Below are positions 8,554-31,327 of a stretch of DNA of 31,621 nucleotides, one piece after another. How positions within the stretch are numbered: position 1 is the stretch's first letter; the number at the start of each line of letters is the position of its first letter. A program made the translations under genes and the position numbers. Under the pieces are notes generated by a model. The model ran no database searches and was not told the origin of the DNA. It saw only the letters and a program-made list of their open reading frames with translations. Source of the stretch: a virus; the IMG/VR virus record IMGVR_UViG_3300035195_000079, positions 1 through 31,621 of that record; one strand, 5' to 3'.

Positions 8554-8693
8554 TTTCTAATTTTTTGAATTATTGAAATTGTTGTATATATACAGGCAAG
8601 TGCTAGAGACAAAAATTTTAGCTCCTCATTGATGCTGGTTAAATTAATAGCCAAAGCACCAATATTGAAAAAAGCAATTTTCATCTCTTCCAT
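8550..8693 (-). CDS. small membrane protein, holin-like, 47 aa
   Basis: A 47-residue hydrophobic protein with two short membrane-like stretches (KIAFFNIGALAINLTS and FLSLALACIYTTISII) and a basic end (QKIRK). Its ATG overlaps the stop of the large LamG protein (TAATG) and its stop overlaps the next start (ATGA), so it is part of the late operon. Two short helices and a basic tail resemble small class II holins, but size limits certainty. Confidence 0.5.
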   Translation of the reverse strand: MEEMKIAFFNIGALAINLTSINEELKFLSLALACIYTTISIIQKIRK

Positions 8694-11095
8694 TATTCGT
8701 TGTAAAGTTGTAAAGCTTCCCCAGAATCCAATGCCCTGTTAAATATTCGTACTTGGTCTAATTTGCCACTAAAATTTGAGCCACTTCCATCAAAATTACC
8801 TATACAATTACCATTTGAGACGGATTGTGTGGCGAGGTTGTAAGTCCAATCCATTCCAGAATCATAAACACCATCAATAAAACATTTAGTTTTAGTAGTT
8901 TGGCTACCATCATAAGTAAAAACAAAGTGATGCCAAGCATTATCATTATATCCACCTGCGGTTGATTGAGCATTATTAGCTGATTGTCCAGTCCCTGCCC
9001 AGTTGTTAACACAAATTTTACCTGCAGGAGAAAAACTGTTATCTATTCTAATGTTAAATGTATTATTACCATTTCTTTTATTAAACATATAGCTACCATC
9101 TGCAGTTGAAGTATTAAACCATAAGCTATAACTAAACTGTTCTCCTTCTGCTCCGTAAGTTTGCGGTAGAGTTATTTTACTACTACTACTATTAAATATT
9201 GCTGCTTTATCTATATACCCTGTGGCATAGGCTTCTGTTCCACTCCAAGTTCCATTATAATTACCTTCTGCATCGTTTGCGTTATCTTCAAACTTGTATA
9301 AAGCTACTTCACTTGCATCACCAAATGGGTTAGTTGCGTTTCTTGTTAGACCGCTTGGGTTAAATACTTCTTCAGCTATTGCTAAAAAGATAAAATCTCT
9401 TCCTGCATCGTTTAATGAGGAGTTGTTTCCTAAAACTGTAAAACCATTACTATTTAATATAACATCATTAGTAAAAGAGCCTTCTACAACTAATGAGTTT
9501 GCATAAAGTCTTGAAGTTAAAGTTCCGTTTCTTTTATTGTCAACTATATTCCACCATTCATCTGATGTTGTTTTAATTAAAACAAAAGCAGGTCTGAAGT
9601 TTGTTACTATTAATTGTGTACTATCTGACCCAACGTAGCTGCCTACTCGTGACATTCCATCTACTGAATGGAAGCAGTAGGTAATAAAATCAGTACTGGA
9701 TTTACTAACTCCTGTCGTTGTGCCTATGGTAAAAACAGAATCTGTCGGTGCTGTATCATTCCAATAAGATAAAGAATCTTGTCTTGCAGAACTTTCATTT
9801 AATCTTACGTTATAATCTTCTGGACTTGTTTCGTCTAAACCTATGTGGTATGTGTACCAACTTGCTGAATGACCCATTGATTTAACAATATACATTTGAG
9901 GGGCAGAATCCAATCCGTGTCCTACGGTAGCAATACCACCGCCACCAGTATATTTTACAATACTAAACCCTGCTTCTTTATTAGCTGAAACTAAACAATT
10001 TGCACCTTGTATTGTACCATCATTATTTTGAACTGAAGCACCACCTGCTCGAATACACCAAGCTACATATTTAGAATTTGTTGAATTTACATAAGTAGAA
10101 GTACCTATTTTAAAACCATTGTTTTCAATACTCGATATGAAAGAATTTCCAACATTAGCATCTTGTGGAAAAGTACCGTATGGATAAATCAAATTTAAAT
10201 TTGTTGCATTAGGACCTGTACCTGTTCCGCCTCTCACTGAATCGGCAATTATATGGTCTGTTGCATTAGGACTTCTTTGCTTTGCCCAAACAAAATCACT
10301 TTGAAAATTTAAGCCAGATATTAAACGATTAGAAGTATTATTTCCATCCCAAATGAGGGTATTAAAATAATCTGTCGGTACAATAGTAGGCACACAATAA
10401 ACCTCATTGTAAAGTGTGGTTACTTCAGAACTTGAAAGTGTTTTGTTGAATATACGAACGTTATCTATTGAGCCGTCAAAAAACTGTTGAAATGAACCTC
10501 CTGTAAATCTATAGCTTCCTATACCTGCTTTTGTAGTTGAATGAAAATTAATTAAATTGTTTTGTGTTAATGTTACAGCTGTACCGTCATTAATATATAT
10601 ATTAGCTTGGGTTGTGCTTATAGTGAGCACTACATTTGTCCAAACATTATTAGCGACAGTTGCGGTTGTATTTAAATTACTTTGTGTACCGCTATTATAA
10701 AATTGAGCAGTTAAAGTTTGATTTGCATTTTTTTTCCATATAAAACCTCTTGAAGTACTACCGTCATAATCAAAAGAATTAAATATACTTTGGTCTGCTG
10801 CATTTGATGCAGAATTAATCCAAGCACTTATAGTTATTGTTGTATTATTAAAAGAACCTGCTGAAAATTCTACATTACTACTACTCCCATTAAACTGCGC
10901 TGCATTGCCAAACTTCCCTGCTACGTTAAAGTTAACGCTTGTAGGTGTCCCATCAAAATTGCCACTTTCATCAGTAGCATCTGACATCTTATAATAAGCA
11001 ATACAAGAAGTATCGCCTAATATTTGTAATGTGTCAGTTGTACAAGAACCACCTGCCGCAGCACTATTGGAATTTATTAGTCTTTTACCTAACAT
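8693..11095 (-). CDS. tail fibre/receptor-binding protein with two LamG domains
   Basis: An 800-residue protein. Residues about 25-230 and 595-800 are two concanavalin A-like LamG domains: each starts with a V/C-A-x-Y-K phrase, has WINS/WFN strands, a W-x-N/H-V/F-V phrase, and closes with DNVRIFNKTL or DQVRIFNRAL plus LYNE. The middle (about 235-585) contains FDFVWAKQRS-like and IVKYTGGGG..VGHGLDSAPQ motifs often seen in marine phage fibres. Such domains bind sugars, so host-surface recognition is likely. N-terminal 20 residues are low complexity (NSNSAAAGGS). It stands between smaller fibre genes and lysis genes. Confidence 0.75.
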   Translation of the reverse strand: MLGKRLINSNSAAAGGSCTTDTLQILGDTSCIAYYKMSDATDESGNFDGTPTSVNFNVAGKFGNAAQFNGSSSNVEFSAGSFNNTTITISAWINSASNAADQSIFNSFDYDGSTSRGFIWKKNANQTLTAQFYNSGTQSNLNTTATVANNVWTNVVLTISTTQANIYINDGTAVTLTQNNLINFHSTTKAGIGSYRFTGGSFQQFFDGSIDNVRIFNKTLSSSEVTTLYNEVYCVPTIVPTDYFNTLIWDGNNTSNRLISGLNFQSDFVWAKQRSPNATDHIIADSVRGGTGTGPNATNLNLIYPYGTFPQDANVGNSFISSIENNGFKIGTSTYVNSTNSKYVAWCIRAGGASVQNNDGTIQGANCLVSANKEAGFSIVKYTGGGGIATVGHGLDSAPQMYIVKSMGHSASWYTYHIGLDETSPEDYNVRLNESSARQDSLSYWNDTAPTDSVFTIGTTTGVSKSSTDFITYCFHSVDGMSRVGSYVGSDSTQLIVTNFRPAFVLIKTTSDEWWNIVDNKRNGTLTSRLYANSLVVEGSFTNDVILNSNGFTVLGNNSSLNDAGRDFIFLAIAEEVFNPSGLTRNATNPFGDASEVALYKFEDNANDAEGNYNGTWSGTEAYATGYIDKAAIFNSSSSKITLPQTYGAEGEQFSYSLWFNTSTADGSYMFNKRNGNNTFNIRIDNSFSPAGKICVNNWAGTGQSANNAQSTAGGYNDNAWHHFVFTYDGSQTTKTKCFIDGVYDSGMDWTYNLATQSVSNGNCIGNFDGSGSNFSGKLDQVRIFNRALDSGEALQLYNE

Positions 11096-13116: not shown

Positions 13117-15039
13117 TTATTTTGGTGTTGTAAAGTTTTTAGGTTTTATAAACCCTCTATTTTTCATATCTCTTGGTCGTTTAGCCACCTTTGTGTCGTT
13201 AGTGTCAGGTTTAAATCCTTCTTTTTTTGCTTTGTTAACGCTTATTTCTGCTTTTGGATTTGTTGAGTCAGGTTGTACACCTTTTGCCATATACGTTTTA
13301 CGCATCCAAAAATGCCTGCACGATCCACCGCCTTTATAGAGCCAAATATCATAAGTAGCTGCACCACTTAAACCCCATCCTGCATTAACTGCAAGATCGC
13401 TCATTTTCATTATATCTTCTTTACGATAGATTTTTTTAGCACTAACCATTTTTTTACAAAACTCTCTACTGTTTGCTTTTGTTGTTAATGGTGCATATTG
13501 ATAACGTACTTTGAATTTTAAATCATTTACTATTTCGTCTTGTTTGCTTTTTGCGTTTGGTCTTGCTGTTCCTGTAGAAGCTAAACCAATCATCTTATCT
13601 AGAGTTTCTTCTTGATCATAGTCAACTTCACGTTCATCAACCAATTCCCATTTATCTAAATCTTCATCTTTACCAAAATCTTGAAGAAGCTGTAGCATTT
13701 TACTGTCTTCAAACTGAGAACTCAAATTATTTTTCTTATGTTCTTTGCAAGGCATAAACCAAATTTGCCCTTCATAGTCGTGTTCGTGGTAATCATTACA
13801 ACCTATATTTTTAGCAGCTTCTATAGCCATTTCTTTAGTTGAATATGCTAACCTGTCATCTATAATTGCAAAGTCATTATTAACTACTTGAGAAGACATC
13901 TTAACTCCAGTTTCTTCTTCTATTACATCACTATCAGTAACACCTTCCATATCTGTGAATTCTAATGGCTGTAGTGTTTCAAAGTAAAGCTTTAAAGAAA
14001 TACCATTATATCCTAGAATTTGATCAAAACTATCAATTAATAGATCCTGAAATGGTTTTACTACTACATTGTCGCACAATATAGAAGCCGTTTTAAGCTC
14101 CTCTGCGTTGTTTCCAAGTCCCGTGTTATCCTTTATACCAAAAAGCATCGGAGAAACGATCCTGTGGCTTACTAGTATCTTCTTAGACGATTCATCCGAA
14201 AGGAACTGGTACTGGTTATGAGCATCACTTAACTGAACTGGTTCTAATGAAGCACTTGACTCTGTATTGTCATTAAATGAAAGTATAAATTTTCCTGCTG
14301 AAGAACTACCGCTAAACTTGTCATAAATTCTTTGCTCAATTAACTCTCTTTCTTCTTCATTAGGAATACCATTGTTGAAATTAATCAACATACTTGGTGC
14401 TAGTCCATTTTTAATATTGTTTAAATGGTAGTTAGCTATTTCTTCTTCTAACTCTGCGTATTGTAACCCACCTTGATAATCTACTGGACTGTAGTAATAA
14501 AATCCTGCTCTATATGGTTTAACACAAATAATTTCTATAGCTTCTTTAGATGTTCCAAATGCAGGAATTCTTTTAGGCTTATCCATTGGCTTTAACTTAG
14601 ACCAGTCTGCTGAATAGTAATAACCTTCAACTTCATCTGAGTCTTCATTTACTTTTTCTGCTCTTAATGTTTCAATTGGTAAATGTTCTACTTGTGCTAT
14701 CTTGGTCCTGTCTTTAGAATAAATGACTTGTATTGCACACTGACCCATTAGTTTAAGATCGTAGCAAAATTTTCTTACTGTATCTTTTTTAAATAAACCA
14801 ACCATTTGTGCATACTGATCAGGTTTTTTATTGCTGTCTGTTGCATTTAGTCCCTTACCAAAAACCATTTGAGAAAGTCCGTTTATTATAGCATTGTTTG
14901 TAGGGCTACCATTATATCTGTCAATTAAATACTGATAGTAATTGTTATCCTCACCGTAAAAAATCCAGTCTTTATTCTTTACCTCTTTTATTTCTGGAGA
15001 ACTATAATTGCTGAGGTTTACTATTCCTAATTTTTTCAT
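13117..15039 (-). CDS. portal protein with C-terminal MuF-like extension
   Basis: A 640-residue protein whose first 370 residues fit phage portals: a DNNYYQYLIDRYNGSPTNNAII opening (split 31-52), CVKPYRAGFYYYSPVDYQ, HLNNIKNGLAPSMLINF, and the SHRIVSPMLFGIKDNTGLGNNAEEL stretch (about 290-315) typical of the PBSX/HK97-type wing and stem. A further 250 residues follow, including a cysteine-rich HEHDYEG..MPC block near 410-425 and SREFC (524-528) with GGGSCRHFW (571-579), resembling the C-terminal motif of MuF-type minor head proteins. No separate MuF gene is seen, so a fusion is likely. Starts by ATGA overlap with the preceding gene. Confidence 0.82.
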   Translation of the reverse strand: MKKLGIVNLSNYSSPEIKEVKNKDWIFYGEDNNYYQYLIDRYNGSPTNNAIINGLSQMVFGKGLNATDSNKKPDQYAQMVGLFKKDTVRKFCYDLKLMGQCAIQVIYSKDRTKIAQVEHLPIETLRAEKVNEDSDEVEGYYYSADWSKLKPMDKPKRIPAFGTSKEAIEIICVKPYRAGFYYYSPVDYQGGLQYAELEEEIANYHLNNIKNGLAPSMLINFNNGIPNEEERELIEQRIYDKFSGSSSAGKFILSFNDNTESSASLEPVQLSDAHNQYQFLSDESSKKILVSHRIVSPMLFGIKDNTGLGNNAEELKTASILCDNVVVKPFQDLLIDSFDQILGYNGISLKLYFETLQPLEFTDMEGVTDSDVIEEETGVKMSSQVVNNDFAIIDDRLAYSTKEMAIEAAKNIGCNDYHEHDYEGQIWFMPCKEHKKNNLSSQFEDSKMLQLLQDFGKDEDLDKWELVDEREVDYDQEETLDKMIGLASTGTARPNAKSKQDEIVNDLKFKVRYQYAPLTTKANSREFCKKMVSAKKIYRKEDIMKMSDLAVNAGWGLSGAATYDIWLYKGGGSCRHFWMRKTYMAKGVQPDSTNPKAEISVNKAKKEGFKPDTNDTKVAKRPRDMKNRGFIKPKNFTTPK

Positions 15040-15427: not shown

Positions 15428-15456
15428 AAAAAAAAAGGGTAACATTTCTGCTACCC
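15428..15456 (-). terminator. rho-independent terminator after tail-tube candidate
   Basis: In minus-strand RNA, GGGTAGCA and TGTTACCC form an 8-bp stem (one G-U) closed by a GAAA tetraloop and followed by nine T. It lies 25 nt after the stop of the upstream gene. Read-through or a weak promoter must serve the portal genes. Confidence 0.88.
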
Positions 15457-16086: not shown

Positions 16087-16125
16087 AAAAAAAAAAGGTG
16101 AATAGGCACAACTGGCTTACCCACC
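16087..16125 (-). terminator. rho-independent terminator after major capsid gene
   Basis: In minus-strand RNA, GGTGGGTA pairs with TATTCACC (8 bp, two G-U) around a 13-nt loop and is followed by ten T. It is 23 nt after the capsid stop codon, the usual place for a terminator that keeps capsid transcript levels high. Confidence 0.85.
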
Positions 16126-18621: not shown

Positions 18622-18768
18622 CTAAGATGTTTTGGTAATATTTCCTATTCCTTGTGCATTAAAGCTACCATCACAGCATTTCTTGGAATAAGTGATACCA
18701 TCTTTGCATAAACATCCACGTTTCCTTCCTCTTGGTGAAGGTATTCTTCTGTCGTTATACTCTTTCAT
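18622..18768 (-). CDS. small cysteine-rich protein, 48 aa
   Basis: A 48-residue basic peptide with four cysteines (GCLCKDGITYSKKCCDGS, 18-35), a possible metal-binding or disulfide-stabilised knot, followed by NAQGIGNITKTS. Its ATG overlaps the protease stop as ATGA, so it is co-translated with it. I believe similar small proteins are found beside head genes of Bacteroidota phages; function unknown. Confidence 0.65.
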   Translation of the reverse strand: MKEYNDRRIPSPRGRKRGCLCKDGITYSKKCCDGSFNAQGIGNITKTS

Positions 18769-19469
18769 TTTATTGGAACACAATTAGGAACTTTCTTTCC
18801 GTTTTTCATTTTAAAACCTATCATTTCATAACCTGCCCAACAAGGTTCTTTCAGGTCTTCCTGCTCTAACTCTTTCTGTTCAAAAAAGTCTTTTAATTTA
18901 TCTAGTCTGTCTTGAGCAACTAATTCTTCTTTTAATCCTGCATCTTGAGGCTTCTCAATCTTGTCTGCAAAGTATCCTTCAATACTAAATCCTTTTACTA
19001 AGCCAGTCTTAACATAGTCATTCCAAATCTGATCATTGTCAACCTTAACAGTACCCATCCAAGTCCCTAATGGAACGTCCATATTATATTTAGCTGATTT
19101 ATCGTGTACCATATCTTCTTTAATCCAACTTTCTACTAAAGTCAATCCTTGAATATTCATTTGGTGTTCGAGTGTACTGTTCTTTTGGTTTCCACTCTTT
19201 AAGTACTTTTGGGATGCTTTAGAGACAGTTTCCCTTGAAAAATATATGTAGTATTCCTCGTCTTCGTTTTGCCTGTATATAGGCTTATTTGGTATAAGCA
19301 ATGCTCCCATTAATATTTTCTTCTCTTTATCTACTTCAGCTAACTGTATCTTATCTTCTTTTTTCAAAGCAATAAAATCTTCTTCAATCGCTGGGTTTTC
19401 GACAATACTAATAGCTTCTATACCATTAAATTCGTCAAATTCATCTAAAATTAATTCTACTATTTTCAT
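18765..19469 (-). CDS. prohead protease, XkdF-like
   Basis: A 234-residue protein resembling PBSX XkdF-type phage proteases that process the prohead. It shows the FNGIEAISIVENPAIEEDF opening (14-32), STLEHQ (97-102), LTLVESWIKEDM, PLGTWMGTVKV and LVKGFSIEGYF blocks, in order. The C-terminus carries PCWAGYEMIGFKMKNGKKVP, a short tail repeated in many phage proteins. It follows the tape measure gene and precedes scaffold and capsid genes, as for a head-maturation enzyme. I infer a serine-type protease from the family; the catalytic residues were not assigned. Confidence 0.75.
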   Translation of the reverse strand: MKIVELILDEFDEFNGIEAISIVENPAIEEDFIALKKEDKIQLAEVDKEKKILMGALLIPNKPIYRQNEDEEYYIYFSRETVSKASQKYLKSGNQKNSTLEHQMNIQGLTLVESWIKEDMVHDKSAKYNMDVPLGTWMGTVKVDNDQIWNDYVKTGLVKGFSIEGYFADKIEKPQDAGLKEELVAQDRLDKLKDFFEQKELEQEDLKEPCWAGYEMIGFKMKNGKKVPNCVPIK

Positions 19470-19472
19470 ATT

Positions 19473-21185
19473 TTATCCTATTGATGCTCCTTCTGTTATA
19501 TTACGATCTAATGCCTGTTGGTTTGTAATTTCGTTGCTAACTACAAAGGCTTTTAGAGGTTTATCCTCTTTATTTCCTATTGCTTGTGCCAATTGATTCT
19601 CAGGTGCTGCACCTACCACATTAAAACTTGGTGATCTTGGTACTGAGGGCTGAGATGGACTTCCACCTCCAACGGATGGTCCTATACTTGCTATTTTTTT
19701 AACGTTTGCAAATCCTGCTGCAACTGCTGCTGCTGCTGCAATTCCACCTAATACTGGTCCAACTACTGGTATTCCTGACAAAGAAGCAAATGCACTTGTA
19801 GCACCTTTATAGGTTTCTATTGTTGTTTGTGCTATAGCTGCTGCTTTACCTGCTTTACTTTCTTCACCAAAGATTGAAGCCAAGTCTCCCATAGCGTTTG
19901 ATGCTAAATCAATTTTTGCTGCTGTAGTTTGTTTATCTAGTTCAACTTGATTCTGACTGTTTTCTTGAGTTAATACGTCAATTTCATTTTGTGCTTCCTG
20001 AAAAGCTAAAGTACCTTCCTTATATAAAGCCTTTTTATCCTGTAAACGTTTTAAGTCAATTTGATATTCTTGTTCTGCAACATCTTTAAGAGCAAGTAAC
20101 TTAGCATATTCACCTATTATAAGATCTGCATTAAATTGTAAAGCTGCTATATTAAGTTCTGCTTCTGCATCTGTCTTTGATTGTGTTAACTCAATTGACT
20201 CCCTGTCTAAAGCTAAATCATTAGATTTTTGTTCTGATCTAAATCCATCTATCTGAGCCTGAATACCTAACTTTTCGTTTTTAGCTTCTTGTAAAGCTAT
20301 AGCATTTGCATCACTTTTATTTTTATCATATTGTGCCTGTGCCGATTTAATAATTAGATCAACACCACTAAGCATTTGTTGTTCTTGTTTGTCTAGTATT
20401 TCGTTTAACTTATTGTTAGCCTCTATTCTATCTTGTATGGTATTTCTCTCTTCATCTCGTATTTGCCTTTGCTGTTCTGCTTGTCTATCATACTTTTCTA
20501 TCAATCCTTGATTAACAACTGCTGCAAGTTCTGCTGATTTCTTGAGTTCAACGTTTGCTTTTGCAGTTTCGAAAGCTGCCGAAATACTTATATCTGTTAT
20601 GCTTTTAACTGCTGATTTAAAATTAGTAACTATAGCTTTACCTGAATCTACAACACCATCAACAATTTCAAGAACCTCACCTTTAGCATTTATGATTCCT
20701 AAAGTTAATTCTGCTATTTCTTTCTCGCTTCCACCAGTAAATTGTAACCAAGCTTTTTTAGCAGTAAGGAAAGCAATTGTAAGTCCTTCAACAGCTAATT
20801 TAAAAGGTGCTAAACCAATATTCAAAACATTCTTCAATACTTTACCTAATGCATTGAATTCACCATTCCCTTTTATTACAGCTTCAACTACTTGGTTAAA
20901 TACTATACTTATGGTTTCCATTCCAGTAGCAAAAAGATCTGCTACCTGTTGGTTTGCCATAAATGTCTCCTTCAGAACATCAAACAATTTAATAATTATT
21001 CCTAATCCTAATCCGCCACTAACTAGGTTCTTTAATCCGCCTAGTATTTTATTGGTCTTTTTGGTTTCCTTACCTGCTGCTGCTGTTCCTTTAGTTAGAT
21101 CATCAACTTTAGCGTTTAGTTGTCCAACTTGTTTAATTGCATCTTTAGCTAATGCTTCTAGTTCTATGGAATATTTCTGGCTCAT
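19473..21185 (-). CDS. tail tape measure protein
   Basis: A 570-residue protein with the tape-measure pattern: a polar helical N-terminus (IELEALAKDAIKQVGQLNAK), a hydrophobic stretch (GGLKNLVSGGLGLGIIIKLF, about 50-69), a long central coiled coil (VNQGLIEKYDRQAEQQRQIR onward), and a hydrophobic C-terminal region (GIPVVGPVLGGIAAAAAVAA) that may insert into the host membrane. At about 0.15 nm per residue it implies a tail of roughly 85 nm, short for a siphovirus. The preceding 46-residue gene overlaps it by ATGA. Confidence 0.8.
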   Translation of the reverse strand: MSQKYSIELEALAKDAIKQVGQLNAKVDDLTKGTAAAGKETKKTNKILGGLKNLVSGGLGLGIIIKLFDVLKETFMANQQVADLFATGMETISIVFNQVVEAVIKGNGEFNALGKVLKNVLNIGLAPFKLAVEGLTIAFLTAKKAWLQFTGGSEKEIAELTLGIINAKGEVLEIVDGVVDSGKAIVTNFKSAVKSITDISISAAFETAKANVELKKSAELAAVVNQGLIEKYDRQAEQQRQIRDEERNTIQDRIEANNKLNEILDKQEQQMLSGVDLIIKSAQAQYDKNKSDANAIALQEAKNEKLGIQAQIDGFRSEQKSNDLALDRESIELTQSKTDAEAELNIAALQFNADLIIGEYAKLLALKDVAEQEYQIDLKRLQDKKALYKEGTLAFQEAQNEIDVLTQENSQNQVELDKQTTAAKIDLASNAMGDLASIFGEESKAGKAAAIAQTTIETYKGATSAFASLSGIPVVGPVLGGIAAAAAVAAGFANVKKIASIGPSVGGGSPSQPSVPRSPSFNVVGAAPENQLAQAIGNKEDKPLKAFVVSNEITNQQALDRNITEGASIG

Positions 21186-21322
21186 AATGCTTTTTTAAAT
21201 TGTTTGTAGGCTTCGCTTATTGATTCAGGATATTTGTTTTTACCTAATGCTAGGTCAATGTAATTTCCTTTCCATTTTTCTTCTTCTGCTAATTCTAGTA
21301 GTCTTAATATATTATTTATCAT
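21182..21322 (-). CDS. small hypothetical protein, 46 aa, tail region
   Basis: A 46-residue acidic helical protein (LRLLELAEEEKWKGNYIDLA). I start it at the ATG at 21322, which overlaps the upstream stop as TAATG; the longer frame open from 21397 would lie inside the previous gene. Its stop overlaps the tape measure start (ATGA). It may be a small tail assembly factor. Confidence 0.6.
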   Translation of the reverse strand: MINNILRLLELAEEEKWKGNYIDLALGKNKYPESISEAYKQFKKAL

Positions 21323-24249
21323 TATGTACATTTTACTGCAAATAGTGTATCTATTGTTGCAGGGTGTGTTAAAGTAATTGAATCTAAACAAATACATTCT
21401 AAGTAACTTGATTGTGCATTTGCTAATATTGTATAAGTTCTTACATAACCGTCTTTAGTTAAAAATGTAATTGTGTTTTCCTTATCTCCATTAAATACCG
21501 CTACACTTTGATAAAAATCTCCGCTACAATAAGCAGTAGCATTTACTATTTGAATATCAGAAATTGCATCAGCAAAATCATAGTTAGTATCTGTATTTGT
21601 TCTTGCGTAAAATATATAGTAATTTATAGTCCCATAATTTATAGCGTAGTCTGTAACTTTTACTAAATGAGGTGTGCTTGGCTTGTTGGTAAATGCTGTT
21701 TGTGGATATTCAACAACTGTTGTATTGGGGTTTGATTTAATTGTTTCAAGATCAGTACCTAACAAACTAGCTTTATTTGTTGAGAATATAAAACCATACT
21801 CGTCTACGTTTTTAGTTTGATCTATTTTACCTAATTCAGTTATTGACCAAGTAGGGTTAATTGTATAATTCGTACCTGTTCCGTGTACTACATTGTCACC
21901 TATTTTTGAAATAGTAGGTGGGCTTACAATTATAGCACCTGAAGAATTACCAATGTCTGGTTTATTTGGATCTAGTATATCAGAAGATTGGTTATCACTA
22001 GGATTGTCTAATACTTTACCATCTGATTCATCACCACAACCCATACTTGCTTTTTCAACAATTGAATCTGCACTTATTGTAATTGTGTCAACTGTGATAC
22101 ATTTAGCTACATTATCATATTTCTGTTTAATTTGAGTGTCTACAATTATTAAATCACCAAGATTTGTTCTTGTGTTAATTAATTCTAAAGTCGATAAATT
22201 ATTTTCAAAGTTTGTTACTATTTTATTAATCTTATAAAGCCTGTCAGATATCCTAAACTTATCTGCAAGTGTCATATTCTTAGTAACATTTAACGGAAGA
22301 TATGCTTTAGTCGTAGTCATCCTCCTACCTTTATCAAATACTTCTGTTATATATTTTTTGTAATACTGATCAAAAAGGGTTTTATTAAATTGTACTGTTT
22401 GGTTAAATTCGTTTATTTCTGCAGCATAATTAATATTTACTGAGTCAGTTAACAACACTGAATTTGATGGAATGTATGTACTTGTTTTATTTGATACTGC
22501 ACCTGTTGAATCAATTATACCAAATGTCATTCCTGTTTGTAATACAGGATAAAACAACAAAGGATCGCCAATGGTAGCACCTTGTTTAATGTCTGCAAAC
22601 CATCCATATTGAATATTTGTTTTAGCTGTTACTGAAGTATTTTCATCTGGCAACCTTTCAAACATCATATGCTCAAAAGGGTTTTCTACAGTATATACTT
22701 GACCGTCAACTACTTCATCTGGTGTTTCATTAGCCCTTCCCCATTCCTTATGGATTCTTTCATTATAATTAGCTGCTAAAAAAGTCTTAGTCCCTTTATA
22801 TTTAAAATCAATCTGTTTAAATGGTAAAACACTATCAACTGTTTGTTCTGTTTTATCTATGTCTTTAGTAATGTCCCAAACTTTGTTGCTTGATCCATAA
22901 AAATTATCTAAAGTTTTAACTTCAATATCTCCATCTATATTTTGGAATGCAGTCAAGTTAAACACCTTAAACAATCCAGTTAAAAAGTCTATTACTTTAA
23001 TCTCTGGAAGTTTAGATGCTGAGTTTATGTTATTACCTACTATAGTAGTAGCACTACCATTCCAAGTTTTTGGTTGATTTCTACCCTTTGCTTTTGCATA
23101 TCCTCTAAATGCAAATGTAAGAGCAGAAGAGCATTGAACTTCAATTGTATAAGTACCCTTTTTTAATTCTATACCTCCTTCGTGCCATTCTATATTTTGC
23201 CCACTACTATTAGGATTACGATTACAAGTTTGATCTTTATATTCTTCAAATACTAAACCATCTTTTTTAATTATAACACTAAACGTTGCGGTAGAGGTAC
23301 TAGGAGTAATGGTTAAATCAAACTGTCTAGGGTTTCTTTTATTGTTTCCTGTTGCACCTCTTTGCGGAACTAAAAAACTTCCCCTATTTAATGTAATATG
23401 TTTATCGTTTCCACCTGTTGAAACAAAGTCACTAAATACAGAAGAACTATCATCGTCTACAAATAGACCACCTGTTTTGTGATGCAGCCACAAGTACAAA
23501 TTATAATACGGAATGTTTCCTGCACTAAAAAAATCATCCGTAAATGTAATTGGATAATTATTTTCTATTGCTCGAATTATTACATCAACTCTTAATGCAG
23601 GTTTTAACTGAGATATTTCTAAACCTAAATCAGCAACAGAAGAACTAAAAAATATATTATTCTGTTTATCTGTGTTTTTAATTTGACCTGATCCAGAAGT
23701 TGAATCATATACTAGCCTTTTTGTATGGGTTATTAAAGGGAACAATAAAGCATCCTCATAAATAACATTATCTACAGTAACATCTAACCCATCAGCCATA
23801 TAGGTTTTTATATTAGCATCTGTGTAATTGAATGTAAAATTGTTTAAGAAACTTAAGGCATCAAGTTTGTCTTCACCTAGTATATCTTTTAGATTTATTG
23901 TGCTACCAAAGAAAGTAATTTTATAGGTATGGGCTTTGTTGTTTTTTGTAGTCGCTCCTTCTAACTTAATTTTACCCTTACGGAATAGTTCATCATTAAG
24001 ATATAATTCAGCATTTCGTTTTATTCTTGCATCAAATCCTACAATATTATAATTGTGAAAATGTTTAAAAACTTTGTTGTTTATTCTACTAGCAGGTACT
24101 GCAAATGTTTTAGTAAAATCTGTGAATATTTTTTCAATATCTCTTACATCCTGTATTGATTGAGTAAGGCTAATTGATTCATCCTGAAACAGATCTACTT
24201 GTTCCAGAACACCTTCTTCGTTCGCTACATATAATTTTAGTGCTAACAT
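21322..24249 (-). CDS. large tail/baseplate structural protein, 975 aa
   Basis: A 975-residue protein with a well-conserved-looking start: LFQDESISLTQSIQDVRDIE (20-39), IFTDFTKTFAVPASRINNKV (41-60), FKHFHNYN, and GKIKLEGATTKNNKAHTYKI. I know proteins beginning this way in flavobacterial phages as large virion proteins of unassigned role. The rest alternates beta segments with N/D-rich loops, and the last 250 residues look like an Ig-type or adhesion module. It sits directly before the tape measure, so a distal tail or baseplate hub is likely. Confidence 0.62.
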   Translation of the reverse strand: MLALKLYVANEEGVLEQVDLFQDESISLTQSIQDVRDIEKIFTDFTKTFAVPASRINNKVFKHFHNYNIVGFDARIKRNAELYLNDELFRKGKIKLEGATTKNNKAHTYKITFFGSTINLKDILGEDKLDALSFLNNFTFNYTDANIKTYMADGLDVTVDNVIYEDALLFPLITHTKRLVYDSTSGSGQIKNTDKQNNIFFSSSVADLGLEISQLKPALRVDVIIRAIENNYPITFTDDFFSAGNIPYYNLYLWLHHKTGGLFVDDDSSSVFSDFVSTGGNDKHITLNRGSFLVPQRGATGNNKRNPRQFDLTITPSTSTATFSVIIKKDGLVFEEYKDQTCNRNPNSSGQNIEWHEGGIELKKGTYTIEVQCSSALTFAFRGYAKAKGRNQPKTWNGSATTIVGNNINSASKLPEIKVIDFLTGLFKVFNLTAFQNIDGDIEVKTLDNFYGSSNKVWDITKDIDKTEQTVDSVLPFKQIDFKYKGTKTFLAANYNERIHKEWGRANETPDEVVDGQVYTVENPFEHMMFERLPDENTSVTAKTNIQYGWFADIKQGATIGDPLLFYPVLQTGMTFGIIDSTGAVSNKTSTYIPSNSVLLTDSVNINYAAEINEFNQTVQFNKTLFDQYYKKYITEVFDKGRRMTTTKAYLPLNVTKNMTLADKFRISDRLYKINKIVTNFENNLSTLELINTRTNLGDLIIVDTQIKQKYDNVAKCITVDTITISADSIVEKASMGCGDESDGKVLDNPSDNQSSDILDPNKPDIGNSSGAIIVSPPTISKIGDNVVHGTGTNYTINPTWSITELGKIDQTKNVDEYGFIFSTNKASLLGTDLETIKSNPNTTVVEYPQTAFTNKPSTPHLVKVTDYAINYGTINYYIFYARTNTDTNYDFADAISDIQIVNATAYCSGDFYQSVAVFNGDKENTITFLTKDGYVRTYTILANAQSSYLECICLDSITLTHPATIDTLFAVKCT

Positions 24250-26767: not shown

Positions 26768-27277
26768 TTATTTCTTTAGTGTGTAATCAAAAAAGTCTTC
26801 TATGTCTAATCCAAAAGCCTCGATCAATTCTTTAGGTAGTTTTTCAAATCCTTGTTCAAATGGTTTAGTAAAAAATAACGAAGGCTTGATTCCTTTTTTC
26901 TGTATGCTTCTAGCGAATAAAAATCCTATAGTATTATAATTCCCTTTAGTGTATTTTCCCTTACTGTCTCTTAATCTTATGTTTTTTAGTTTAGCCCAGT
27001 CTGCTAGAGCTTTAATAGGTGGCATCTTAGATCCATAACTAAACGGAGTGTTATATTTTTGTTTCGTTCCGCTAACTCCTTTATCCTGAAACTTACCGTA
27101 GTATGGCATATCAAATTTAACAAGGATACTATTCTGCATTTCCTTAACTTGTCCTTCTAACTGGTTATATAGATCACCTGTAGCCTTCTTACCTGCCTTA
27201 GTTAATCTTGACCTAGATTGTTGTATAACAAAGTTTTTAAAAGCCTCTAAGACCTTCTGTGTGTTTTCTAGTCGCAC
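26768..27277 (-). CDS. neck/tail-completion protein, HK97 gp10-like
   Basis: A 169-residue basic protein. A GTG start at 27277 overlaps the upstream gene by 10 nt. The central block YYGKFQDKGVSGTKQKYNTP (59-78), then FSYGSKMPPIKALADWAKLK, has the look of HK97 gp10 or Mu gpG-like head-tail joining proteins: F-x-D-x-G-V plus a proline-rich helix. The C-terminus is helical and acidic. The assignment uses motif memory plus neighbours. Confidence 0.58.
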   Translation of the reverse strand: MRLENTQKVLEAFKNFVIQQSRSRLTKAGKKATGDLYNQLEGQVKEMQNSILVKFDMPYYGKFQDKGVSGTKQKYNTPFSYGSKMPPIKALADWAKLKNIRLRDSKGKYTKGNYNTIGFLFARSIQKKGIKPSLFFTKPFEQGFEKLPKELIEAFGLDIEDFFDYTLKK

Positions 27278-27741
27278 GTAGATATATCATTATTAGTTAT
27301 TACATCAAATGTGGATGCCCATCCTGCTACTTGGTTTTCAAATCTGTCGATAAATGGTTCACAACTAGGAGTGCTTGTGATTTGGTAGTTACTTGAGTAT
27401 AAATTACCACGCTTCATTTCAATAAATAGCCTGTTCTGTACTTCTAACTGTGTATTCAATACATCCTGCATATTGTTGTTTCCTGCAAATACATCAACTG
27501 TTTCTTGTTTACTCTGATCAACTGAGTCCATAGAAAGAACACTTATGTTAAAACTAACTACATTATCTAAGAAGGTAACGTTGTTTACCATTACGTGTGA
27601 TAGTGGAAAAATAGTTTGCTTACTTAAATCTATATCCGTTATGTTACCGAACGTAACTGTGTTACAATTTGGGTCCTCCAATAGTTGGGTTTTTATCGTA
27701 TCTGTTATTTGGTAGAACGATCTAGTTCCTTGTTGGCTCAT
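27268..27741 (-). CDS. tail terminator/neck-like protein
   Basis: A 157-residue protein with helical start (RSFYQITDTIKTQLLEDPNC) followed by strands (FGNITDIDLSKQTIFPLSHV; NNVTFLDNVVSFNISVLSMD). The alpha-beta order of the first 90 residues suits tail-terminator proteins that cap the tube. It starts by TAATG overlap with the -1 frame of the chaperone region, so its translation may depend on frameshifted ribosomes. Function is inferred. Confidence 0.52.
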   Translation of the reverse strand: MSQQGTRSFYQITDTIKTQLLEDPNCNTVTFGNITDIDLSKQTIFPLSHVMVNNVTFLDNVVSFNISVLSMDSVDQSKQETVDVFAGNNNMQDVLNTQLEVQNRLFIEMKRGNLYSSNYQITSTPSCEPFIDRFENQVAGWASTFDVITNNDISTCD

Positions 27742-27998
27742 TACTGATTTCTTTTAATTTGTTTAGCTTCTATTTCGTTTTTCTCTTTCATAAAGGTTAA
27801 CATAGTCAAACATTCTATAGCTCCAAGCTTTGTGATATGTTCAAGTCTTTCAATATTTCCTGCAGCGAGTGCATAGACTGACTGATACCAACCCCATTTG
27901 AGTCCAAAGCTTTCAACTCCTCCAAAGTTAGCTTGTCTGCTGTCTCCTTCTGTAAATAGTTCAGGGTATGATTCAATAATTCCTTGTTTAAATTCCAA
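27741..27998 (-). CDS. tail assembly chaperone T-like segment, reached by -1 frameshift
   Basis: An 85-codon frame lying in the -1 frame relative to the G-like gene and overlapping its last 184 nt. It opens exactly at the slippery run; its only local start would be TTG at 27998. Its sequence is strongly protein-like (FGLKWGWYQSVYALAAGNIE; LTMLTFMKEKNEIEAKQIKR) and resembles conserved C-terminal parts of tail assembly chaperones. Joined to the first 163 codons of the G-like frame it gives a fusion of about 248 residues, like lambda gpGT. It ends in a TAATG overlap with the next gene. Confidence 0.68.
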   Translation of the reverse strand: MEFKQGIIESYPELFTEGDSRQANFGGVESFGLKWGWYQSVYALAAGNIERLEHITKLGAIECLTMLTFMKEKNEIEAKQIKRNQ

Positions 27999-28486
27999 AA
28001 AAAAACCATTGCTCCAACAGCTACACTTAATGGAGACTTCAACATTGCTTCTGAATATTTACTTCCATCATATTCTTCTATGAGATATCTATCTCCTTTG
28101 TCAAGAGTAATCGGTCTATATAGTACACTTAATGCCTTATCCATCGTTTCCCAAGAGGTTAAATAATTATCTAGATCTATGTATTCACCGAGAGTGATAT
28201 CATCTAAATTAGGCACAAAACCATATTCTACACCATTTAAAGTAAATCTAGGGGTATGAGGAGCATTGCTGTTTATTACTTTATTTATTTTCTGTGTTAT
28301 TTTTACAAGATCATTGTACTTAATCTTCAGAGTTATTTCTAGGTCTATACCACAAAAAATCTCTACAAGTTTTTGCATAATGAATGTACTATCCTTGTTG
28401 TCTTCTGTATTGAGTTTCTCGAATTTTACATATTGTTCTAATGTAACATCATCGAGTGTTTCAGGAATAATCAAATTTAACTTCAT
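27815..28486 (-). CDS. tail assembly chaperone, G-like
   Basis: A 223-residue acidic protein (LNLIIPETLDDVTLEQYVKF start; VPNLDDITLGEYIDLDNYLT near 92-111) followed by a second acidic helix block. The position before neck, tail and tape-measure genes and the overlapping -1 frame identify it as the G-type partner of a tail chaperone pair. Beyond the slip site (after codon 163) the zero frame continues for 60 codons (NKELLNHTLNYLQKETADKL), so both products have real C-termini. A promoter and terminator precede it, so it begins its own transcript. Confidence 0.7.
   Translation of the reverse strand: MKLNLIIPETLDDVTLEQYVKFEKLNTEDNKDSTFIMQKLVEIFCGIDLEITLKIKYNDLVKITQKINKVINSNAPHTPRFTLNGVEYGFVPNLDDITLGEYIDLDNYLTSWETMDKALSVLYRPITLDKGDRYLIEEYDGSKYSEAMLKSPLSVAVGAMVFFWNLNKELLNHTLNYLQKETADKLTLEELKALDSNGVGISQSMHSLQEILKDLNISQSLEL
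27998..28004 (-). promoter_or_regulatory. slippery heptamer T TTT TTT for -1 frameshift
   Basis: A run of nine T on the minus strand (27997-28005) is read in the zero frame as GTT TTT TTT TGG, so the heptamer fits the X XXY YYZ rule. After a one-base backward slip the next codon is TTG at 27998-27996, entering the 85-codon frame. I see no strong stem-loop within the usual 5-9 nt; a weaker bulged hairpin could form about 60 nt downstream. Transcriptional slippage on the T-run is an alternative. Confidence 0.7.
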
Positions 28487-30166: not shown

Positions 30167-31327
30167 TTACCTGACTGCATATTTACCGTAGTTTGGTCGC
30201 ATAAGTTTGTTTAATATGCTGTACCTCAGTGCATCACACGAATGATTGTTTTTATCTTCAGGCTTATTTGTTAAGTCACCATTCTTATCTTCTAAGTATT
30301 TATATGATCGCATCTCCTTTATAACGTTAGTACTTGTGTTCTTTACGAAAATATTATACCTTCTTAACATATCTAGGCCTAAATTTATCTCTCCTTTTTT
30401 AGTTGGTTTGATATTCCACCCCATTCTATGGATCTCTTCTATACTTTTTGGTTCTGCTGAGTCTGCGAATATTTCATCTCTTCTATCTAGTTTTAATTTG
30501 TCGAATTCTTTTGAAATGTCCTGATTTGTTAATCCTGTACTATAAATTAACTCTTCTACATACATATTAATTCCATCTATATATGTTGCTACCATTGCTG
30601 TCGGATCATTTGTGAAGCCAAAGTCTAATCCTCTTGAAACTAACTTAGCTGTACTTGGTATATTATAACAAGTTTTAAATTCAAAAATTAAACTTCTACT
30701 TTGCCCCCTTAATCCTAGACCATATATGTTCCAGTAATTTTGATCTGTGTCTTTTAGTAATTCTATTTCATCAACTATCTGCTGTGGTAGAAAGTGGTTA
30801 TCCTTATAGGTCGTTTGGTAGAAAGAACAATCTTTTCTAGTTAAAACTTTATCATATATCCAATGGAATTCATCACTTGGGTTATAATCCAGAACAATCT
30901 GTTCAGAGGTCCTAAATATTAATTGCTGCCAATCTTCAAAGTTTAATTCGTTTGCTTCATTGATAAATAACAAGTCTCTTTTTCTACCCCTGATTTTTTG
31001 TGGCTGATCTAAACTAATAAACTCTACAAAGTTACCATTCAATTTATATGCTGATTCTGTCTTGAGATGCAATTCCTCGTCATATAATGAATAGCTGTTT
31101 AGGATTGTAAAGAAGTCTCGCATTACTGTACCTCTTACTGCAGGGAATGATTTTCTAACTACTGTTATTGTTTTGTTTTCATTCTGCTTACAATAGGCAA
31201 ATATAATCCATAGCAAAATATTATAAGTTTTACCTGATCTTGTGCCACCTTGATGGACTATAATTTTATTTCGATCGTTTACTAGAGACCTAAATACCTT
31301 ATTGGTGTGTATCAGTTTCGCTTTCAA
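30167..31327 (-). CDS. terminase large subunit (TerL), PBSX/Terminase_3-like
   Basis: A 386-residue packaging motor. The ATPase domain has Walker A GGTRSGKT (27-34), Walker B LLFINEAN (119-126) and an SLDQPQKIRG coupling-type phrase. The nuclease domain has GLDFGFTNDPTA (233-244) with D235, FADSAEPKS (287-295) with D289, and SCDALRY (363-369) with D365. Together they cut and pump phage DNA into the prohead through the portal. The frame starts with TTG at 31327, inside the end of the small subunit gene (29-nt overlap); no ATG precedes Walker A in this frame. The length is slightly short for the family but complete. Confidence 0.93.
   Translation of the reverse strand: MKAKLIHTNKVFRSLVNDRNKIIVHQGGTRSGKTYNILLWIIFAYCKQNENKTITVVRKSFPAVRGTVMRDFFTILNSYSLYDEELHLKTESAYKLNGNFVEFISLDQPQKIRGRKRDLLFINEANELNFEDWQQLIFRTSEQIVLDYNPSDEFHWIYDKVLTRKDCSFYQTTYKDNHFLPQQIVDEIELLKDTDQNYWNIYGLGLRGQSRSLIFEFKTCYNIPSTAKLVSRGLDFGFTNDPTAMVATYIDGINMYVEELIYSTGLTNQDISKEFDKLKLDRRDEIFADSAEPKSIEEIHRMGWNIKPTKKGEINLGLDMLRRYNIFVKNTSTNVIKEMRSYKYLEDKNGDLTNKPEDKNNHSCDALRYSILNKLMRPNYGKYAVR

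Follow-up and report, generated by a model that had tools for sequence, protein, structure and literature searches.

A conserved T9 slip site followed by two overlapping, constrained reading frames in a putative tail assembly chaperone gene of flavobacterial phages

The window analyzed here is a 31.6-kb virus record (31,621 nucleotides, taken at its full length), in which a minus-strand gene carrying a run of nine T, referred to below as the slip gene, sits in a head-tail module together with genes for a terminase, a gp10-like protein and a tape-measure protein (Table 1). The zero frame of the slip gene runs from an ATG to its stop codon over 223 amino acids. The T9 run is read in this frame as GTT TTT TTT TGG (V161 F162 F163 W164), and the zero-phase heptamer T_TTT_TTT lies in codons 161-163. 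Past the slip, the -1 frame reads TTG GAA TTT AAA CAA and onward for 85 codons, and a -1 shift would therefore give a fusion of 163 + 85 = 248 residues, of which 163 are common to both products. The zero frame meanwhile stays open for 60 codons beyond the slip, and the two frames overlap over 184 nt (27998-27815). The original prediction had described this layout, including the shared 184 nt, the sizes of the two products and their common part, the 60-codon zero-frame extension and the T9 run whose heptamer leads into the -1 frame, and all of it agrees with the sequence. The prediction had also placed the opening of the second frame at the T run, which holds for its coding part but not for the stop-to-stop frame, already open from 28058, upstream of the slip.

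Table 1. Positions of the slip gene, its parts and neighboring genes in the window
Feature	Position	Strand	Evidence
Terminase large subunit, upstream of the slip gene	30167..31327	-	PF04466, E 1.6e-22; PHROG terminase
Zero-frame gene, 223 aa: folded 163-aa N-terminal domain and 60-codon zero tail	27815..28486	-	ORF, homologues and AlphaFold model
T9 slip run, with heptamer T_TTT_TTT at 27998-28004	27997..28005	-	In phase throughout the homologues examined
Zero-frame tail, 60 codons, overlapping the -1 tail; purifying selection in both frames, from sequence comparison	27818..27997	-	Divergence and shuffle tests
-1 tail, 85 codons and stop, with conserved motifs YPELF and FGxKWGWYQS; fusion of 248 aa	27741..27998	-	Tail-profile matches
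Next gene, 157 aa, conserved neighbor without assigned function; its start codon and the -1 tail stop overlap in TAATG	27268..27741	-	ORF; homologue in Nonlabens phages
169-aa protein, HK97 gp10-like (head-tail connection/tail completion type)	26768..27277	-	tblastn to an annotated HK97 gp10-like protein, E 3e-4
Tape-measure protein, 6.6 kb downstream of the slip gene	19473..21185	-	PHROG tail length tape measure match, E 1.2e-11
Protease	18765-19469		
Portal	13117-15039		

The slip gene comes after the terminase region and is separated from the tape-measure gene by six ORFs (about 6.6 kb); large proteins without assigned function are also encoded in the window. A homologue of the 157-aa neighbor is also next in order in the Nonlabens phages. 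Several other features of the window were observed. T10 and T9 runs on the minus strand (16087-16096 and 15428-15436, respectively) lie in two intergenic gaps of the structural module and may be transcription terminators. An 800-aa protein with a laminin-G-like domain and DUF7483 (8693-11095, minus strand) is probably a tail fiber or adhesion protein. Just before the tape measure, a 71-aa ORF (21182-21397, minus strand) overlaps the end of a 975-aa gene (21322-24249, minus strand) by 76 nt.

A nucleotide search of named phages returned no match. Most of the relatives in bacterial genome contigs come from Flavobacteriia, Flagellimonas onchidii among them, and Nonlabens/Persicivirga are the hosts of the nearest named phages. 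The slip-gene family belongs to phages of marine and freshwater flavobacteria, and the host of the virus in the window is, judging from these relatives, probably flavobacterial. A flavobacterial-type slip gene is also carried by one contig binned as an Epsilonproteobacteria MAG (L168), which is probably a misbinned phage contig.

The T run was found to be deeply conserved among homologues. A search with the zero frame yielded 80 loci. The run is T9 or T10 in each, always in one and the same zero phase, and the additional T of T10 comes here from a change of the Val codon to Phe without any indel. When a profile of the -1 tail was used, leaving the zero tail aside, more than 500 matches were obtained, and in all 73 distinct -1 tails examined the long upstream frame lies at +1 relative to the tail, so that a -1 shift leads into it. 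An in-phase run of T9 or longer is present in all 73, which include subclades in which the T run is placed one codon differently. Queries from further afield, with identity as low as about 25-30%, recovered the same T9 arrangement, and one distant query (L169) returned no further homologues. In the combined set of 244 homologous loci (195 distinct), the run is T9 in 199, T10 in 44 and T12 in one, and each of the 244 carries T_TTT_TTT in phase, followed by a homologous -1 tail that is open. Loci entered this set on three conditions: a T run of nine or more in phase, a long frame upstream and a recognizable -1 tail. As run length was itself a condition, the independent evidence for the absence of shorter runs comes from the zero-frame, -1 tail and distant searches.

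The codon before the run varies among loci (GTT, CTT, ATT or TTT), as does the one after it (TGG, TAY, TTG, TTC, CTG or CGT). The zero-frame heptamer X_XXY_YYZ is nevertheless present as T_TTT_TTT in all loci examined, even though codons ending in T make up just 40% of those for Val and Ile, 16% for Leu and 77% for Phe. These comparisons of sequence establish the arrangement and its conservation. The shift itself would occur as a minority event, and both proteins are presumably made.

How the frame is changed can be approached from the run itself. We lean toward -1 ribosomal slippage on U_UUU_UUU rather than transcriptional slippage, and the two may act together. Under transcriptional slippage, RNA polymerase would stutter on the T9+ run, mRNAs that have gained one U or lost two would be read into the -1 tail, and the zero-frame mRNA would give the 223-aa product; this is a serious possibility, if not the one we prefer. 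It would account for a run that measures T9 or more in every homologue examined, though T_TTT_TTT needs just seven, and that stays within this range under other phases, as in TTG TTT TTT TTT CTG (T9), AGT TTT TTT TTT CGT (T10) and ATT TTT TTT TTG (T10). Elsewhere in these phages long runs are missing: within 100,090 other codons, T runs of at least nine number 0 against 6.5 expected, and A runs of at least ten number 0 against 15.8 expected. The third frame, moreover, closes within 2-3 codons in 187 of the 195 distinct loci. Under-representation of long runs has been used as a signature of slippage-prone sites (PMC1088944), and runs of eight to nine or more are described as slippage-prone (PMC1088944, PMC3711429; at least eight in PMC3711429).

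Two observations weigh on the side of the ribosome. The T9 length largely follows from the encoded V/I/L-F-F-W/Y together with an in-phase T_TTT_TTT. In addition, T8 runs elsewhere number 3 against 10.3 expected when they stand in the T_TTT_TTT phase, and 5 against 5.7 expected in the other phases; this phase-dependent avoidance points, within the limits of such small numbers, to ribosomes. Folding of the downstream RNA gave a mean z of 0.00 and no conserved stimulator, by simple folding that is blind to pseudoknots; upstream folding is weak (z -0.32), and a Shine-Dalgarno-like element upstream of the slip occurs in only 3 of 76 loci. This scarcity of stimulators would fit polymerase slippage as well. 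Not every frameshift site has stimulators. Given this, and the blindness of simple folding to pseudoknots, the absence of a stimulator weighs little against a ribosomal shift.

If the -1 tail were a separate gene with its own start, then the overlap would be of the ordinary kind and no shift would be needed. GenBank indeed shows two separate hypothetical proteins at this place in the Nonlabens phages, and roughly half of the loci have a start-type codon, mostly TTG or GTG, close to the junction. However, in 94 of the 195 distinct loci the stretch from the upstream stop to tail codon 20 lacks ATG, GTG and TTG altogether, and an ATG is present in only seven. The phase of T_TTT_TTT, which a tail with its own start would not need, is kept in all loci examined. 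A separate gene is thus improbable.

We then turn to the zero-frame tail and its overlap with the -1 tail. The zero-tail motif NGVGINQS is the +1 reading of KWGWYQS in the -1 tail, and similarity among zero tails therefore proves little by itself. In a shuffle in which the -1 protein was fixed and its synonymous codons were randomized, 0.8 of 76 zero tails would be expected to be open, whereas all 76 are open; this set comprises the loci other than those of Nonlabens and one further locus, L132. The third frame carries stops in all 76. Synonymous divergence was compared along the gene in 39 disjoint close pairs. In the -1 frame it is 0.111 within the overlap and 0.241 after the zero-frame stop (ratio 0.46, bootstrap 0.35-0.57), climbing to 0.30 in the first eight codons past that stop. 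In the zero frame, it falls from 0.288 upstream of the slip to 0.095 in the overlap. When changes were counted by their effect in both frames, the zero frame had a dN/dS-like ratio of 0.34 (0.25-0.45) and the -1 frame one of 0.24 (0.17-0.31). The pattern of substitution indicates that the zero and -1 frames of the same DNA are both under purifying selection, i.e., that the region is overprinted. Codon usage slightly favors the -1 frame as the older one (Spearman 0.75 versus 0.66), which is not conclusive. The original prediction that this DNA encodes two distinct protein ends is borne out by the selection on both tails, and its reservation that a tail lacking conservation would not be coding applies to neither of them.

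The zero tails fall into lineage-specific lengths of 16-25 codons (Nonlabens), 54-57, 60-66 and 79-84 codons, the long tails spanning 54-86, and provide a clean natural series for the study of dual coding. Consistently, when 64 pairs were grouped by zero-tail length, the synonymous constraint ends near codon 50-55 where tails have 54-57 codons, near codon 60 for tails of 60-66 codons, and runs past codon 60 for tails of 79-84 codons. In the Nonlabens phages, the slip and the -1 tail are kept while the zero frame continues for just 16-25 codons past the slip. P12024S and P12024L (genes 38/39 and 40/41, respectively) have a homologous pair with a T9 slip, CTT TTT TTT TAT, and a -1 tail like that of the window, and differ in a zero tail of 25 codons. 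L132, one of the 244 loci, has a stop at zero-tail codon 8. The long zero tail is thus not universally needed. In the tree, the Nonlabens lineage forms a long outgroup branch, such that a gain of the zero tail elsewhere and a loss in Nonlabens are indistinguishable.

The short Nonlabens tails and the loss of the long tail in L132 would also fit a situation in which only the -1 frame codes and the zero tail is functionless read-through of conserved sequence. Part of the zero-tail conservation is, as noted above for NGVGINQS, forced by the -1 frame, and model confidence for the zero tail is low. Against this stand the 76 open tails and a zero-frame ratio whose upper bound is 0.45, and the -1-frame synonymous constraint reaches each lineage's own zero stop. 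On these sequence data read-through appears very improbable and is refuted in its general form, barring an RNA element whose end coincides with the zero stop in every lineage. Homopolymers are error-prone, and the original prediction had noted that relatives with eight or ten T in one continuous frame would point to a sequencing error; no such relative was found, T10 loci keep the slip arrangement, and since 195 distinct loci, two isolate genomes (Nonlabens P12024S and P12024L) and bacterial genome contigs all show this run in this phase, a sequencing or assembly error is practically negligible.

Predicted structures were examined for the 223-aa product and for the -1 tail. In the AlphaFold model, residues 1-165 form an alpha/beta domain with pLDDT mostly 82-95, and the zero tail (166-223) is helical with pLDDT mostly 50-74, dropping from about 80 to 32 at its end. 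The -1 tail is modeled as helices with a mean pLDDT of 72. Structural matches are uncharacterized phage proteins, including one of Nonlabens P12024S, and a single distant and weak BFVD match is named tail assembly chaperone (E 0.018, probability 0.99, TM 0.37/0.42). Profile searches of Pfam, NCBIfam and PDB with both products gave nothing useful, a fold search of PDB gave only generic helical matches to the tail helix, and Foldseek with the -1 tail model gave no candidates. Flavobacterium phage 6H gp10 was considered as a relative and dropped as evidence, its structural likeness being weak, with no T9 and an unclear multi-frame arrangement. In the 6H gp10 region (L170, 9571-10927), the frame seems to switch twice, by recoding or by sequencing error, and a frame lacking annotation directly ahead of the next gene encodes a T-like tail.

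Frameshifting in phage tail chaperone genes is a textbook case of recoding, in which the short product normally ends soon after the slip. The slip of phage lambda takes place on a G/A heptamer, in contrast to the T9+ run here, and the tail chaperone gene of phage P2 (E/E+E') has a -1 shift at a T-rich heptamer. The T-rich -1 slip of the present gene resembles that of P2; no profile match to P2 E/E+E' appeared in the family searches. The lambda gpG/gpGT pair and the conserved G/GT genes of long-tailed phages share with the slip gene a common N-terminal domain, a longer product made by -1 slippage on a heptamer and a place in the head-tail module. The lambda slip lies near the 3' end of G (PMC5009743), whereas here the zero frame goes on for 54-86 selected codons that overlap the -1 tail. 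Lambda G/GT also adjoins the tape measure, unlike the slip gene, and the profile searches gave no sequence match to known tail chaperones. The original prediction had placed the gene at the genome position of lambda G/GT, which does not hold: no tape-measure gene lies directly downstream. Its reading as a G/GT-type tail chaperone is consistent with two products from a conserved -1 slip arrangement, though not with the gene position of lambda, and fold homology amounts to the one weak match.

In lambda, the tape measure is coated by many gpG and few gpGT molecules, and tail tube subunits are brought in through the T part (PMC5009743). By analogy, we consider it likely that the slip gene is a two-product gene with a -1 shift at T9+, acting as a tail assembly chaperone pair of the gpG/gpGT kind; the chaperone role is suggested by its architecture and place in the genome. 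Most expression would remain in the zero frame and end in the lineage-specific helical tail of 54-86 residues, and a minority of events would shift at the T9+ run into a helical domain of about 85 residues (YPELF...KWGWYQS). The abundant chaperone that coats the tape measure would then be the 223-aa form, with the 248-aa form recruiting the tail tube protein. A more specific version, in which this clade makes its chaperone pair by RNA polymerase slippage on T9+ and the 54-86 codons of the short-form tail specify an overprinted domain that has a function of its own, is tentative and, taken as a whole, rather unlikely.

The -1 shift of the G/GT type is known; what appears to be new is that, in a pair resembling G/GT, selection acts on two frames along 54-86 codons past the slip. 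Our literature search, whose scope did not extend to the 2004 survey by Xu, Hendrix and Duda (cited in PMC5009743), found no G/GT-like pair of this kind. Genes using transcriptional slippage, such as those of IS elements, Shigella mxiE and spa13, and Thermus dnaX, likewise have a homopolymer of about nine or more, two products and avoidance of long runs elsewhere (PMC1088944, PMC5009743). They are not phage tail genes, however, and long dual coding is undescribed for them in these two papers. In hundreds of phages, 54-86 shared codons are under selection for both ends, so the end of the short form must do something. The deeply conserved T9 site, in turn, allows ribosomal and transcriptional slippage to be separated experimentally. 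Finally, the adjacent hypothetical proteins of P12024L and P12024S (L081 and L082, 4001-4695 in each; e.g., P12024L_40 and _41) look like one -1-shifted gene, a join that is absent from the annotation.
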